Shown piece after piece: positions 1,490-55,100 of a stretch of 64,000 bases of DNA. Position 1 is the first letter of the stretch; each line of letters begins with the position of its first letter. Both the position numbers and the translations under genes were made by a program. The notes under the pieces are model-generated. The model was not told where the DNA came from and did not search any database. It saw only the letters and a list, made by a program, of their open reading frames with translations. The DNA is from Sipunculus nudus (taxonomy: Eukaryota; Annelida; Sipuncula; Golfingiida; Sipunculidae). The stretch is taken from the NCBI GenBank assembly GCA_026874595.1, contig CM049309.1:49512079-49576078 (forward strand), read 5' to 3'.

Positions 1490-2187
1490 GTAAGCCTTTA
1501 TATTATTAACCATATATACAAGACCCAGTTACTTTGATATATATATTTATCTACATAATTACATATATGTACTCTTGGCCAGCTGCGCATATGGATTTAC
1601 CTTGGCTGCAATTCCACGTTATTAAACTTTTCCATAAACCTCTGAAAAAAGCTAAAGAAAAACAAGAATGGGCCCAAATCATGTAAAAAGTAATAGACCT
1701 ATGCGTGTCACGTTTCTTTATAACATATTTTAGTCTTAATAGAAAAGATAAATAAATTAAAAAGACCTGTGTACACTTAGTCCATAATACTGATTTTTTT
1801 AAATATTTAAAAAACTGCAAGTAATCTATTGTGAGATTTTTACAGGAAGCTCAGAAAACATTGCAGAGGTATAATGTGCTATTTTACTATATACAGAATA
1901 GCAAATATATCTTTAAATGTATTTTTTCGCCGCTGACGGAGTATGTCCTTGGAAATGTTGGTAATTTGTTCAAATGCAAAAGTTCCTAAAAGAATTCTTA
2001 AAGGTTTGGATTATGGACAAATTCCAGTGTTAGGCATATTCCCCATTTCAATAACTGAAGGATCTTTTAGTAATTTCCAGGCTGGCTTGCAAAATTCCAC
2101 TTATTTTTTTGTTCCCAGAGTCAATCATTTAATAAAAATTTTGTTGTGTTCCTTGTTAGGAGTTTTCGTGCAGCAGAAACCACGAAC

Positions 2188-2708
2188 ATGGATGATCATG
2201 AATCAGATCAAGGAGACATCGGGAGAGCGGAAGATATAGAACTAGACAACACAAACGCAGGCGGGACACACCCTGGACATACTGTCGTCATCACTGTGGA
2301 AGAGGCGTCTGATAACAGTGGTCCTTACGTATCCACGATCCTCAGTCAGAACGAGAATGAAAATGAAGATGGTGAAGTAGGAGAAGAAAATGATGATGAC
2401 GAACTGAGATCCAATAACTCAGGAAGCGGGGAGCTCCAACACCAACCTGCCGCCATTGACGCGGTGGCTGTACCGGAAGATGTACCTGCACATGCGCAAA
2501 TCAGCTCCACTGAAGCAGAAGGAACGGCCAGTGACGATATCACATCAACCATTTCATCAACGACGATAGAGACTGATGAAGACTCACAAAATATTGCCGG
2601 AAACGTGCCTCAGCCCTGGATACTCATCCCGTGGGGTGGTCCCCGCCGTGCTAGATACGCCACACCGAAGACGACGAGGGAGCCTGGTGACACGGATTCT
2701 CAAACAGA
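2188..2708 (+). CDS. EAR gene exon 1: acidic Ser/Thr-rich N-terminal region
   Basis: This exon encodes residues 1-173 and two bases of 174. It is rich in Asp, Glu, Asn, Ser and Thr, has no recognisable fold and is probably disordered. It includes the run NENENEDGEVGEENDDDE. The donor is AGA|GTAGGT at 2709. A likely acceptor lies 15 bases upstream of the ATG (CGTGCAG ending near 2173), so the 5' UTR is probably split. The reverse-strand ORF across this exon is a shadow. Confidence 0.75.
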
Positions 2709-2743
2709 GTAGGTCACACAAATGTAAAAATCACAAATGTGAT

Positions 2744-2787
<44 letters not shown>

Positions 2788-3041
2788 TAATAATAATAAT
2801 AATAAATTTACATTGTTCACACCAATATTAACCCTTCCATGAAAACAGCTACTGTATGTAAAATGGCTGATCATGTTATTTTCTTTTCTTTTTTTCCGAA
2901 TTGATGCTTCAATAATACGGGGTTGAATACTATATTGTATACTGTTGTATATATTATGTATTTGTTTTAATGGAGAAGCAGCATTCTTCTTAAATTAGTG
3001 CGTTATATTAAGTTAAAAATGTATTCATACATTGTACAAAT

Positions 3042-21066: not shown

Positions 21067-21115
<49 letters not shown>
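21067..21115. repeat. (TA)n tract abutting the Penelope-like element
   Basis: About 24 TA units end within three bases of the left inverted arm of the element at 21118. Confidence 0.9.
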
Positions 21116-21117
<2 letters not shown>

Positions 21118-21118
<1 letters not shown>

Positions 21119-21189
21119 CTGAAGAAAAACAACACTGTTAAATCACAACAGACTGTTTCACGGGATGCGACCCGATCATCAGGTGAATG
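21118..21189 (-). repeat. Left inverted arm of the Penelope-like element
   Basis: The arm matches 22598-22669 in inverted orientation with two differences. On the - strand it lies about 580 bases downstream of the ORF stop and carries a hammerhead in the same sense as the ORF. Confidence 0.85.
21141..21188 (-). ncRNA. Hammerhead-type ribozyme, left arm
   Basis: On the - strand the same core is present: CTGATGA (21182-21176), stem II CGGG/CCCG, GAAA (21059+100, that is 21159-21156) and a short stem III with loop GTC. Stem I is ATTCAC with GTGATT, so one pair of six is lost compared with the right copy. It lies in the 3' untranslated part of the element, in ORF sense. Confidence 0.7.
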
Positions 21190-21766
21190 TGGTTAGAATG
21201 AAGCTAACGGCGTGGTTTGAAAAGCCGAGACTTTACGAGATTACGAGATTATGCTTTGTGCGATTCGGGGCGAGGGGGGGGGGGAGGGGGCATGTGAAAG
21301 ACTGACACTGATCCTATTGTCCTCGGGTGCACAATAGGATTGGTCGGGGTACACGTGCGATACTGGAACATAACAGGGCAGGGCAAAGAGGTTATTCATT
21401 GTTGTAAATTTTATATATAATACAAAGATATATACCAGGATGCTCAATTAGCATATTGAACTGATTTCTAATAGGGTCTTGGAAGCAGTGAACATATCAG
21501 TAGTATACATATGATGTAAATACACATATACTATAAAAATAAACAATATACAAGGCAAATATACAATATAAAAGGCAAATATACTATACTATACTCATAC
21601 CAAATGCGATCCTCTCGGTAAACTCACCATGATGTAGTGGTAACGCCATGTCCCTCATCACTGCAAAGCAGTGAGAGAACAACTACCTGAACAGGTAAGT
21701 CTGCCCAGCGGGTCCTCGTGGGGGGGGGGGGGGGTTAAGGGGGCACGCTGAATATTAGTACGAATG

Positions 21767-22600
21767 CTAGGTTTTAAAATATTTCAGGGTGAATTTGTTT
21801 TGATGGCGGCACTTGGAGAGAATTTCAGCTCTTGAGTTCAACAATGATCCAGTGGGGGCCGTTGCTATAAGTAGCTTTTCAGACAAGCAGAGATCACACT
21901 CCCTAGTCCCACAGAAGAAAGGTGCTGCCTTCGCAGATATTTCCCAGGAGAGCTTGTAATTGATATTGTTGTCTTTTAGTGACCAAATGTGTTTAGACAG
22001 TTCAGTATTTTTAGCGTGGGATCTGTTCCGAAAGGATTGTTTGTGGTTATTGTATCTTGTCTTGAAATCACCTTCAGTACACCCTATGTAGTGTTTCACG
22101 TCATTGCCTGTTTTTACTGTTGCCTTATAGACAATGCATTTCAGCTGACATTGACCATTCATAGGACATTCGTCTTTTTTACGGCAGTTACATTGTTTTA
22201 GAGGTACATTCACAGCATTGTCAGTATTTAAAACCTTCATATTATGTTTGCTGATCAGGTTAGACATGTTAGGTAGACAGCTATAGCTAATTTTCAAATT
22301 GTTCCTGTTGAATAACCTGTGGTACCGGTGATGTTGAGGGAAGTGTTTTTCAACTAGTTTCATGAATTGTCTGCCAATGTTGGTTTTTACATGACGGCTG
22401 TAGGGGGGATTAAACCATATTATTTTCCTTTTCCTGTTTCTTTTGCTTTTCACTCTGGGTTCAACATATTTTAAGCTTTCTGAGAACCCGCTTTTCGCTA
22501 AAGCTTTGTCATACATGGGTTTGGCTTTCATAAATAGCTCTTTATTGCAGGAGTTGTCAGATACATCATACATGTATGACAAAGCTTTAGCGAAAATCAT
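21767..22600 (-). CDS. Penelope-like ORF, C-terminal part with zinc motif and GIY-YIG endonuclease
   Basis: The 277-residue open frame has IIWFNPPYS at 60-68 and YSCLPNM at 106-112, both typical of the Penelope region after the reverse transcriptase. Next come a Cys cluster (C137, C139, C145, C151) of the kind found before the nuclease, then the GIY-YIG domain: VYKATV 157-162, YIG 171-173, Arg182, His186, probable catalytic Glu241 and Asn256. The family cuts DNA to prime reverse transcription. The reverse transcriptase domain is missing, so this copy cannot move alone. The first 10 or so residues derive from the inverted chimera at the right end and are not native. No internal stop, so the insertion may be fairly recent. 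Confidence 0.85.
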   Translation of the reverse strand: MIFAKALSYMYDVSDNSCNKELFMKAKPMYDKALAKSGFSESLKYVEPRVKSKRNRKRKIIWFNPPYSRHVKTNIGRQFMKLVEKHFPQHHRYHRLFNRNNLKISYSCLPNMSNLISKHNMKVLNTDNAVNVPLKQCNCRKKDECPMNGQCQLKCIVYKATVKTGNDVKHYIGCTEGDFKTRYNNHKQSFRNRSHAKNTELSKHIWSLKDNNINYKLSWEISAKAAPFFCGTRECDLCLSEKLLIATAPTGSLLNSRAEILSKCRHQNKFTLKYFKT

Positions 22601-22669
22601 TCACCTGATGATCGGGTCGCATCCCGTGAAACAGACTGTTGTGAATTAACAGTGTTGTTTTTCTTCAGA
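22598..22669 (+). repeat. Right inverted arm of the Penelope-like element
   Basis: Inverted copy of the left arm, upstream of the truncated ORF. Its hammerhead reads on the + strand, opposite to the ORF. Confidence 0.85.
22599..22646 (+). ncRNA. Hammerhead-type ribozyme, right arm
   Basis: The + strand has the whole hammerhead core in order. Stem I is ATTCAC (22599-22604) with GTGAAT (22641-22646), all pairs formed. CTGATGA is at 22605-22611, stem II is CGGG/CCCG with a six-base loop, GAAA is at 22628-22631, and stem III is ACA/TGT with a three-base loop. The cleavage triplet GTU puts the cut after 22640. Base 10.1/11.1 is U-U rather than the usual G-C, which may weaken stem II. Short stem III hammerheads are known from Penelope-like elements. 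Confidence 0.75.
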
Positions 22670-22732
22670 GTTATACCGCTCTGGCCTAGTCTGTAGGCCA
22701 TATAGCACTTTACATCGGAGGGTAACACTACC

Positions 22733-22735
<3 letters not shown>

Positions 22736-22787
<52 letters not shown>
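22736..22787. repeat. (TA)n microsatellite right of the Penelope-like element
   Basis: About 26 TA units, 66 bases beyond the right arm. Confidence 0.9.
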
Positions 22788-52182: not shown

Positions 52183-55100
52183 CATCAGAATGGATTTTGA
52201 ATGAAAATATGAAAATATATGTCCATCAAATTTTCAGACTACACAAGTACAGGACTACATTTTCCATTTACAGTTGCATATGCCTTGTAAAACATAACAT
52301 ATTCACATGCAAACGTATAGATATACTCTAAATATTCAGGAAACGCGAGAAAACTAAAAAGAAAACGTTCTCCTAATGATACCATAATGTCTATTTGCAA
52401 TGCCCTTCTTTTATTGAATCTTGGGTTCATTATTTCAACACTGTAACATTAATATGTGACGGAATTGTTTCAAAGCTTCTTTCAAGCACTGACTACTTTC
52501 TTATTAACTCTTTAAGGTAACAGAGCTGTCTGATAAGCATGTGTTATGATTGTTCCAGTTTTTCCTTAATAAATTACAAACCGCTTGTCTCTGGTCCATT
52601 GAAATGTACATATTCTAATAGCTGATATAATGTGCTCTACATTGTGGTATATAGAATGTCTTATATTTGTTGATTATTTTTTAATATTAAAACATTTTAC
52701 TGAATTTCAGATATTTGACTAAACATAATTTATTCCAGCATACAAGTAACAGCTACAGAATACCTTTGGGCACCATCTTAAGATACAGGGTACTCTTCCT
52801 GAATTTTGTTATTAACGGTTTAACTTGCAATATTATATTTTTTTAGGATAATTAACTTCAAAATGTAATCAAATATGTACATTTTTTTGTAAATAATCAC
52901 CTATAAAAGACTTCATTAAAAATAAGCATAAATTAAAAATATGCATTTTAGAACATCTACATAATGAAAATGAAAAGTTTTGAAATATTAATTGTTTACA
53001 AATATCAGTCAAAGTATACATATATCAAACTTATAAACCTGTTAAAAATTTAACCAATTATTGAAAGCCAAAAGATGTTTTGAAATATTAATTGTTTACA
53101 AATATCAGTCAAAGTATACATATATCAAACTTATAAACCTGTTAAAAATTTAACCAATTATTGAAAGCCAAAAGATGTCATTTACCACATTTTAGAGAAT
53201 AATTTAAGCTTTCAGAATATGTACATGTTTCGGTTATATTAAGGAAAGCTGAAATAATATTAAATTAGATATTACAGACAATTCTTAGTCCTTAAAGGTA
53301 ACTTTTATGTGCATCATGGCCGGAGGACGTAGCTTTTATTGAAGTATGAAATAGGTTTCTCTTTCATCCACCGGCTTCTGTGTCTCAGGGGTAGTGAATA
53401 TATATAGTTCATATATTTATATAGTTCATACCACTTTCAATTCACAAAAAAATTTTTTTTTCAATTTTAGCATTTTATTTATAAATCTACATAACATTCT
53501 GGCCGGGTTTCTCTTGTCTAGTGTCTATATTTTTGTAATTTATAGTAATCCGGTCCAGCTTTTTTTTAAATATCTCACTTGTTCTGTAAAACGCATATTT
53601 TGTGTATATGGAGAATAAAATACAAAAATACGGTACTTTCAAATATGATTATAATTATTGCTTATAATCTTTATTTAACATTTATTTTTAAGGAAACAAG
53701 TGAATTGGTAATGAACTTTACATGATTTTTGTTTTACAGCTTTTCCTCTTAGCATGAAACTGTGGTATGAAACAGATTTCTTGTCTTGAAGCATGAATAA
53801 TGTAACTCATAAATGTCATACAAGTTCAGTTACTATAAACACCGATGTTTCCGGATGGGCGTTCTACAGAGTTTCGACATTACATTGGTAGATCGTCAGA
53901 GGGCGCTAAGAAACAAATACGATGCAATTGAAAAAAACGACTAAGCCATTTTAAACTATTGCTTAGAAATGTGTACTTGTTTCAAATATTGTCAAAAGCC
54001 GTGACCCTAAAATAAATATGCATACTAGTATAAGTATATGGTATCAAGCGTGAGATTGATTAACCATTCCGCACGGGTCTGTTCATGAATAGTGAACTTT
54101 AATAAAACAGCTCCACCAGAGCGACTTAAAATCTGGTCTGTTACAAGATCAGTTTTCGAATATTGATGTGAAATTTTGCACATGGTTATCAAATTTTAGA
54201 TGCCAGAGGGAAGTAACGTGGGACTTTTTCGCGGTCCCTGGTGAAATGGGTGATGAGACACACATCCGTTCTCACTAGGTCAGGGAAACCTGGCCACTTC
54301 CGGTTCAGTTTCAGCACGTCACTGCTGCCATGCCGTGCCATGATCTGTCGCCAGTCTGCGGCGCCAGGGGAAATATTTGTCATTTGTACATGGTGGCTCA
54401 TAACCGAATCAGGAGCCCGCAGACTGGTATGTCTAGTCGATAACGTATCCTTAATGTGCTTTTAATAACTATGCACTATCAAATTCCCATATACAGTCAT
54501 TACTTTTTTATATCAAAAGCCGCATCTTAATTTTTCACGATGTGCGATGTTTTTCCTACCATATCATATTTTATCTTTAATATTGTAAGATTATGCCAAC
54601 AGTATTGAACTGTGTGATTGTAATGAAATAAAACCTCTGTTCTCTCAAAAAATGTTTAAAAAGGTATAATTACAAACGACTGTCGGTATACTGTGTATGT
54701 TTGATAAGGGGAACCCACATTAAACAGACTGCATTAAAACTCTTCCGGAGTCACTTTCCATTTATTCAAATGAATGCGGCATTCAATCAACTTTAACATA
54801 GACCTTGGCGTACACAATTTTCCAAGGTTGTTCTAAATGTCATGACGCCAGCAGTCATCCACGGGCATTAGTCGATAATAAAATTACTTTACCCAGGGGC
54901 GACCCGGTAGATTTTGTTTACCACAGATATTTTGGATGCTGTTAAAGCTTGTTGACATTCACTCTCAATACTCCTGGGAAATTTTAACATTCTTGTGTGC
55001 CTGGCACCACATGCGGGGTGTTTCGTAATTTTATTACCCAATAATGATATGTAAAACAAAATGCAGCACCGAGCCTCTGTAGGCTTCAGCGAAATGGAAC

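Follow-up and report, generated by a model that had tools for sequence, protein, structure and literature searches.

Structure of the insertion

The window, that is the whole 64,000-nt stretch of Sipunculus nudus DNA that was analysed, carries in (TA)n DNA a 1.63-kb insert with inverted ends. Read on the minus strand, the insert begins with a reversed pseudo-LTR (22598-22737) and ends with a pseudo-LTR in the sense orientation (21112-21189 plus the sequence upstream of it). An inverted pseudo-LTR, an optional tail on one arm and an AT-rich target are the layout of a Penelope-like element (PLE). Positions within the element, prefixed U, were numbered along a real unit of the family (L025:1420-4343), in which the hammerhead-like motif occupies U1-49 (equivalent to 2925-2973) and its predicted cut lies between U43 and U44. 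The features of the locus are as follows:

21067..21111: left (TA)n target flank
21112..22565, minus strand: A-arm, PLE in sense orientation, unit positions 1527-3002, 91.7% identity to the L025 unit
21112 side, minus strand: outer end of the A-arm in the window, site A, resembling a start of reverse transcription, followed by (TA)n
21141..21189, minus strand: left hammerhead-like motif, loop GTC, one stem I pair lost; predicted cut between 21147 and 21146
21199, minus strand: candidate transcription start (+1) at the A of TCATTC, lying 10 nt before the hammerhead and corresponding to the 5′ end of the family's short copies; placed from family data, not from the window copy
21767..22565, minus strand: C-terminal part of the PLE ORF, 5′-truncated, with a GIY-YIG-like stretch named by eye
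22571..22596, plus strand: 26-nt PLE coding fragment, unit positions 1575-1600, joined to the B-arm at the inner junction
22598..22737, plus strand: B-arm, inverted pseudo-LTR, unit positions 1-140, 97% identity; ends at site B, then (TA)n
22598..22646, plus strand: right hammerhead-like motif with all stem I pairs kept and loop GAC; cut predicted after 22640
22676..22737, plus strand: tail between sites A and B, present on the B-arm only in the window copy
22738..22787: right (TA)n target flank

The inverted arms (21112-21189 on the minus strand, 22598-22675 on the plus strand) are 78 nt long and 96% complementary; a preliminary description of this DNA had correctly recognised them, with bounds drawn slightly short at 72 bases. 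They differ at 3 of 78 aligned positions, one difference being a common family allele. Because the A-arm is only 91.7% identical to the L025 unit, the window copy is old. The B-arm runs through U1-140 and then jumps to U1575-1600, near the point where the A-arm stops, and the resulting 26-nt fragment may reflect either a template jump or a fold-back. In a 277-codon ORF the PLE coding sequence extends only as far as about 22565, and the opening codons sit in this fragment, which adjoins the inverted arm. The same fragment produced a spurious mir-148 match in Rfam at a relaxed threshold (E 0.0025), and the other relaxed-threshold matches look like simple repeats and chance hairpins. Elsewhere in the window, at 52977-53178, a 100-nt unit forms a perfect two-copy tandem repeat.

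The element family in the genome

The genome from which the window comes comprises 1.43 Gb in 153 contigs. The pattern CTGATGATCGGGN{4,8}CCCGTGAAACAG occurs in it 2,059 times and the reversed control 0 times; 42 BLAST matches fall in the window and 26 fetched stretches. Some stretches contain tandem 2.92-kb units, each with a 713-codon open frame in which YRDD and a C-terminal YIG stretch were seen by eye. Tandem or partial-tandem pseudo-LTR units, as in PLEs, are found at L024/L025, L020, L029 and L017. Read in frame, the first ATG occurs at U223, about 174 nt beyond the hammerhead. The largest of these structures, at L024/L025 (C1:55,954,211 to about 55,966,903), is a 12.7-kb palindrome of tandem PLE units with about 2.2 units per arm and four 713-codon open frames.

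Searches of Pfam, NCBIfam and PDB returned nothing usable for the window ORF or the L025 ORF, and a single-sequence AlphaFold model of the ORF (pLDDT 33) had no usable fold. The YRDD and the GIY-YIG-like stretch, both read by eye, may be the reverse transcriptase and endonuclease motifs of a PLE. The identification as a PLE is based on the layout together with these ORF motifs, which were recognised by eye. The window locus is a 5′-truncated, decayed copy of an abundant PLE, an ordinary insertion of a known kind of element whose ends record the insertion process clearly. The earlier assignment of a hammerhead-type motif to a PLE is backed by the anatomy of the motif, the tandem pseudo-LTR units, the ORF layout and the 2,059 genomic cores.

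The hammerhead-like motif

In the right arm (plus strand) the motif consists of stem I ATTCAC/GTGAAT, CTGATGA, T-T, CGGG-TCGCAT-CCCG, GAAA, stem III ACA-gac-TGT and T at H17, with six pairs in stem I, four (plus U-U) in stem II and three in stem III. The left arm (minus strand) is the same except for the loop, gtc, and for GTGATT, which produces a single mismatch in stem I. Both arms have CUGAUGA ... GAA, A15.1-U16.1 and the H17 of a type I hammerhead. A descriptor that required at least five stem I, four stem II and three stem III pairs matched the 64-kb window once, in the right arm, and was not matched in 400 dinucleotide shuffles (51.2 Mb); the left arm fails the five-pair rule for stem I. 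The hammerhead-like cores first noticed in both inverted arms, including the predicted cut position after 22640, were recovered. The bare pattern CTGATGAN{6,30}GAAA was not significant, with 3 matches against 1.38 expected and 14 of 100 shuffles reaching 3.

The Rfam hammerhead models gave no match at the gathering level, and searches of 2-kb and 64-kb sequences relaxed to E≤10 found none either. In searches that had no PLE-type positive control, we attribute this to the limits of the models and do not count it as disproof. Hammerheads usually have G-C at 10.1-11.1, where this motif has U-U. The folding energies of the arms were ordinary (z = -0.41 and -0.65), and the minimum-energy fold of the 88-nt leader differs from the hammerhead. 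An alternative hairpin in the leader (U38-56; columns 38-43 with 51-56) would hide the cut site. One of its pairs carries a two-sided change (T-A to A-T, a subfamily) in 12 of 48 variants, and 14 of the 48 are unpaired there; as this is possibly one inherited event, it was given no weight as evidence.

Variation was read in 105 copies, which had been selected by CCTGATGATC and so do not test core conservation independently. Of these, 55 have GAC in the stem III loop and 47 have GTC, so that the difference between the two arms, previously taken to be strand specific, is a family polymorphism; the lost stem I pair, also remarked upon, is private to the window copy (one of 48 distinct variants). 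At H17 the raw column, without correction for indels, reads T 91, A 11, C 1 and G 2. Only G at H17 should resist cleavage, and this was the state of two copies; individual copies had lost other core letters (e.g. G12 in L066). Compensatory changes had been anticipated in other copies; no stem pair was changed on both sides among the 48 variants, a sample of intact cores with low power. Because the copies were core-selected, stem covariation neither proves nor disproves the hammerhead. Of the outcomes that the preliminary description named as counting against it, the lack of a covariance-model match was observed at E≤10; the core itself occurs 2,059 times in the genome. The pseudo-LTR carries a minimal type I hammerhead-like motif, a predicted ribozyme.

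Outer ends of the inverted insertions

The arms end at one of two places, usually followed by (TA)n. Site A (...CTTCAGAGTTATA) is at U78, shortly after the hammerhead, and site B (...GTAACACTACCTTCTA) is at U140, 62 nt further on, past the tail. In the L025 copy the 62-nt tail forms two hairpins when folded, of which the second has an AC-rich loop adjacent to site B; the 150-nt leader plus tail has a folding z of -3.56.

Both outer ends could be read in 26 inverted insertions. One end was A and the other B in 25 (L009, L013, L015, L016, L017 at 9727, L021, L022, L023, L024/L025, L028, L030, L034, L035-L040, L046, L047, L052, L055, L068, L078 and the window), and A plus A was found in none. The sole exception, L066, has B at both ends, perhaps in a nested context. 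If the ends were set by coin toss, the probability of this outcome would be 27/2^26 = 4e-7. The B end is 8 nt short in L021 and carries a small deletion in L055. End type played no part in choosing the 26 loci, which were taken for their similarity, because two cores lay near each other, or from the top of the list for contig C1. Outside this set lie L041, the L017 pair near 174, one insertion on the border of L012, the insertions that L090, L094 and L096 touch, and other close pairs known only as list entries. A narrow look at the PLE literature found no count of one-A-one-B outer ends.

Short single copies, counted by eye, ended at A in 26 cases and at B in five. Among the A ends, L043 is 7 nt short and L076 and L077 may be one duplicated locus; the composite L069 was left out. 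Because A-only copies outnumber B-only copies in this way, site A itself seems to be a start of reverse transcription. Target duplications of about 13-14 bp flank the insertions at L038 and L039. L076 and L077, two C1 loci 1.4 Mb apart, share the same flank and hammerhead copy and probably belong to a duplicated segment, and near position 9353 of L020 a tandem PLE copy has its 5′ end at U75, beside site A, adjoining (TA)n.

Orientation and identity of the arms

Head-to-head pairs are routine in the family, and the inverted pair in the window is not the distinguishing feature it was first considered to be. In the list of exact cores, the first 100 entries gave neighbours up to 10 kb apart that were head to head 12 times, tail to tail 0 times and in the same direction nine times. 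An overlapping list of 83 C1 places gave 7, 2 and 9 respectively. The two tail-to-tail neighbours, known as list entries, are C1:81,060,982/81,061,345 (363 nt) and C1:26,931,856/26,938,597 (6.7 kb).

In seven insertions, namely the window, L015, L021, L023, L030, L034 and L078, the A-arm exceeds the B-arm in length, and the B-arm is the longer in L009, L028 and L047. An A-arm that exceeds the B-arm implies that, in those seven insertions, both arms were primed on RNA. The aligned arms were identical in 8 of the 20 pairs compared, including L009 (346 nt) and L013 (257 nt), and the remaining pairs differed in 1 to 45 columns, partly reflecting homopolymer length and age. A 2-nt deletion distinguishes the two arms of L035; since it also occurs as an allele of a subfamily, it argues for two templates. 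The inner junctions are a few nt long. In two insertions the arms stop jointly, at U2536/2534 after two tandem units (L024/L025) and at U2744/2748 (L013); these joint stops would fit either a shared RNA or a fold-back.

The 5′ end of short copies

In 71 of the 105 exact-core copies the upstream match ends within the fetched DNA. Nineteen of the 71 end exactly at U2915, and 38 of these internal ends fall in U2914-U2920, with at most two per position in U2839-U2911. Genome-wide, ATTCTAACCA is kept upstream in 1,220 cores and seven further letters are kept in 823, a drop that is partly due to mutation. The base preceding U2915 in the 19 copies is G in 12, A in five and T in two (p=0.007 for G against one third), and it is G in 8 of 11 single copies. 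Counts of G and T at this place across the genome were 160 and 81, despite the predominance of (TA)n among the targets; p is 1e-21 for an assumed ratio of 0.18:0.32 and 2e-7 for 1:1.

A cap that has been copied usually shows as a non-templated G ahead of the first base. Position U2915 is the A of TCATTC, which we take to be initiator-like, and GGTCGC at +28 to +33 is presumably a DPE-like element. The 5′ ends of the short copies cluster sharply on a single base, a pattern that a capped RNA template would leave. Insertions of ~88 nt that run from U2915 to site A, and contain little but the hammerhead, are seen at L010, L014, L019, L027, L032 and elsewhere. If the start at U2915 marks the promoter, they would carry part of it along.

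Starts at the predicted cleavage site

Copies starting at the cut were sought at 63 sites with a match to the 3′ part, all within the first 80.6 Mb of C1, the stretch that the list of cores covers. Seventeen of the 63 lacked the exact core; seven of these are known to reach further upstream and the other ten were read. The sole candidate among the ten is L088, which starts at U40-U44. L047, with a BLAST end at U44, was rejected, as the match continues past a mismatch to about U37. There was accordingly no pile-up of insertions at the cleavage site, where at most 1 of the 63 C1 copies starts.

Because sites A and B lie 3′ of the predicted cut between U43 and U44 while the copies extend 5′ of it, the template RNA would have been uncut, or rejoined, at the hammerhead. 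In the Poseidon element from Anolis (PAc), hammerhead mutants leave insertion in vitro unchanged, and cutting by the hammerhead needs the protein (PMC11167929). The findings here agree with those on PAc.

Discussion

From these structures, end points and counts we infer two-sided priming on an uncut PLE RNA, which we consider the best explanation of the inverted arms and probably the correct one. The PLE nuclease would cut both strands in (TA)n DNA, and both DNA 3′ ends would prime reverse transcription at internal positions of the RNA, site A for one end and site B for the other. The inverted arms would then be two cDNAs from the same end of the PLE RNA, both running toward its 5′ end before being joined head to head, with the template uncut at the hammerhead. 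PAc cuts and extends both strands, and its reverse transcription starts at two adjacent sites that bound the tail, with an AC-rich stem-loop (PMC11167929).

A bolder reading, offered tentatively and not as a result, is that each PLE complex contains one capped, hammerhead-intact RNA, whose site A serves one DNA end and site B the other, once each, the hammerhead acting as a brake or in a late step. We think this is a possibility that could well prove wrong, and it is slightly weakened by the two tail-to-tail neighbours and by the arms of L035.

The inverted arms might instead arise by self-priming, if a cDNA started at site B reached the RNA 5′ end, snapped back and copied itself, joining the TA target through its own TTATA, which is site A. 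This would account for exactly one tail per insertion, for the identity of the arms in L009 (346 nt) and L013 (257 nt), and for the near-perfect palindromic centres of L013 and L024/L025; self-priming on an antisense template is proposed in PMC3846280. However, a fold-back requires the A-arm to be contained within the B-arm, and the A-arm has extra sequence in the window, L015, L021, L023, L030, L034 and L078. These A-longer insertions rule it out as the sole route, and the excess of A-only over B-only short single copies (26 to 5 by eye) also argues against it. We consider fold-back improbable as the explanation.

The predicted ribozyme may itself be questioned, in that the core could be kept for promoter or protein-binding reasons and be merely hammerhead-like. 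We take the initiator-like TCATTC and the DPE-like GGTCGC (+28 to +33) to span the core, as this reading would have it. Consistent with it are the lack of an Rfam match at E≤10, the lack of compensatory stem changes in 48 core-selected variants, the alternative fold of the leader and the lack of a pile-up at the cut site (at most 1/63 copies). Against it, CTGATGA, GAA, A15.1-U16.1 and a cleavable H17 occur together with three stems, a combination found 0 times in 51.2 Mb of shuffled sequence, and the raw H17 column of the 105 read copies (T 91, A 11, C 1, G 2) is almost free of G. Furthermore, PMC6155905 reports that hammerheads are conserved in PLEs, where they are usually minimal and have no helix III. 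A motif kept for reasons other than self-cleavage therefore seems unlikely to us.

An origin of the arms by subsequent inversion, or from two separate insertions next to each other, is very unlikely, for although the window arms differ at 3/78 positions (one of them a common family allele), so that two sources are conceivable, and the two tail-to-tail neighbours illustrate that separate copies can lie close, such origins are disfavoured by the head-to-head excess (12 against 0; 7 against 2 in the overlapping list), the inner junctions of few nt, the target duplications at L038/L039 and the A/B rule (25/26).

The family can be set beside several known systems. PLE hammerheads, inverted pseudo-LTRs, tails and two starts of reverse transcription are already published; what is offered here is the one-A-one-B count, the single-base 5′ end with its extra G and the argument for an uncut template. 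The Pen families of Adineta vaga (PMC3846280) share the direct plus inverted pseudo-LTR, the optional tail on one inverted pseudo-LTR, AT-rich targets, short target duplications and head-to-head junctions. Compared with them, the present family has ~2,000 hammerhead cores, with many insertions little more than the hammerhead, a counted one-A-one-B rule and 5′ ends at a single base. PAc resembles it in its tandem units, in the hammerhead within the pseudo-LTR, in insertion from uncut RNA and in internal starts of reverse transcription at two tail-bounding sites, with an AC-rich stem-loop at the start site. The PAc ORF begins at stem II and is cut 26 bp into the ORF (PMC11167929), whereas here the first in-frame ATG is at U223; in addition, the genomic ends here suggest that each site is used once per inverted insertion.

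The minimal type I hammerheads of PLEs and Terminons (PMC6155905, PMC7229834) have the same type I order, core letters and very short stem III, whereas the present motif, a predicted ribozyme, has U-U at 10.1-11.1 and no Rfam match. Metazoan retrozymes are likewise small repeats with type I hammerheads, producing linear and circular RNAs of about 170-400 nt from tandem repeats (PMC7229834). The copies described here differ from retrozymes in being the ends of a coding PLE with no cut-site signature: a retrozyme is a non-coding unit bounded by two cut sites, while this unit is coding and at most 1/63 copies start at the cut.

With the 25/26 count, inverted pseudo-LTRs with one tail cease to be a structural curiosity and follow a rule that can be counted and that limits how the insertion complex may be modelled. 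If a single RNA does serve each insertion, the inverted arms would be a fixed product of the insertion mechanism. The hammerhead would lie at +11 of the mRNA, across the downstream promoter element, where cutting would split the start sites from any upstream ORF, and it would not be the maker of the template. The family has ~2,000 cores, some of them in near-identical tandem units that carry long open frames, and provides a genomic readout of PLE insertion that covers which start of reverse transcription is used for each DNA end, where the RNA starts, its capping and whether it is cut.
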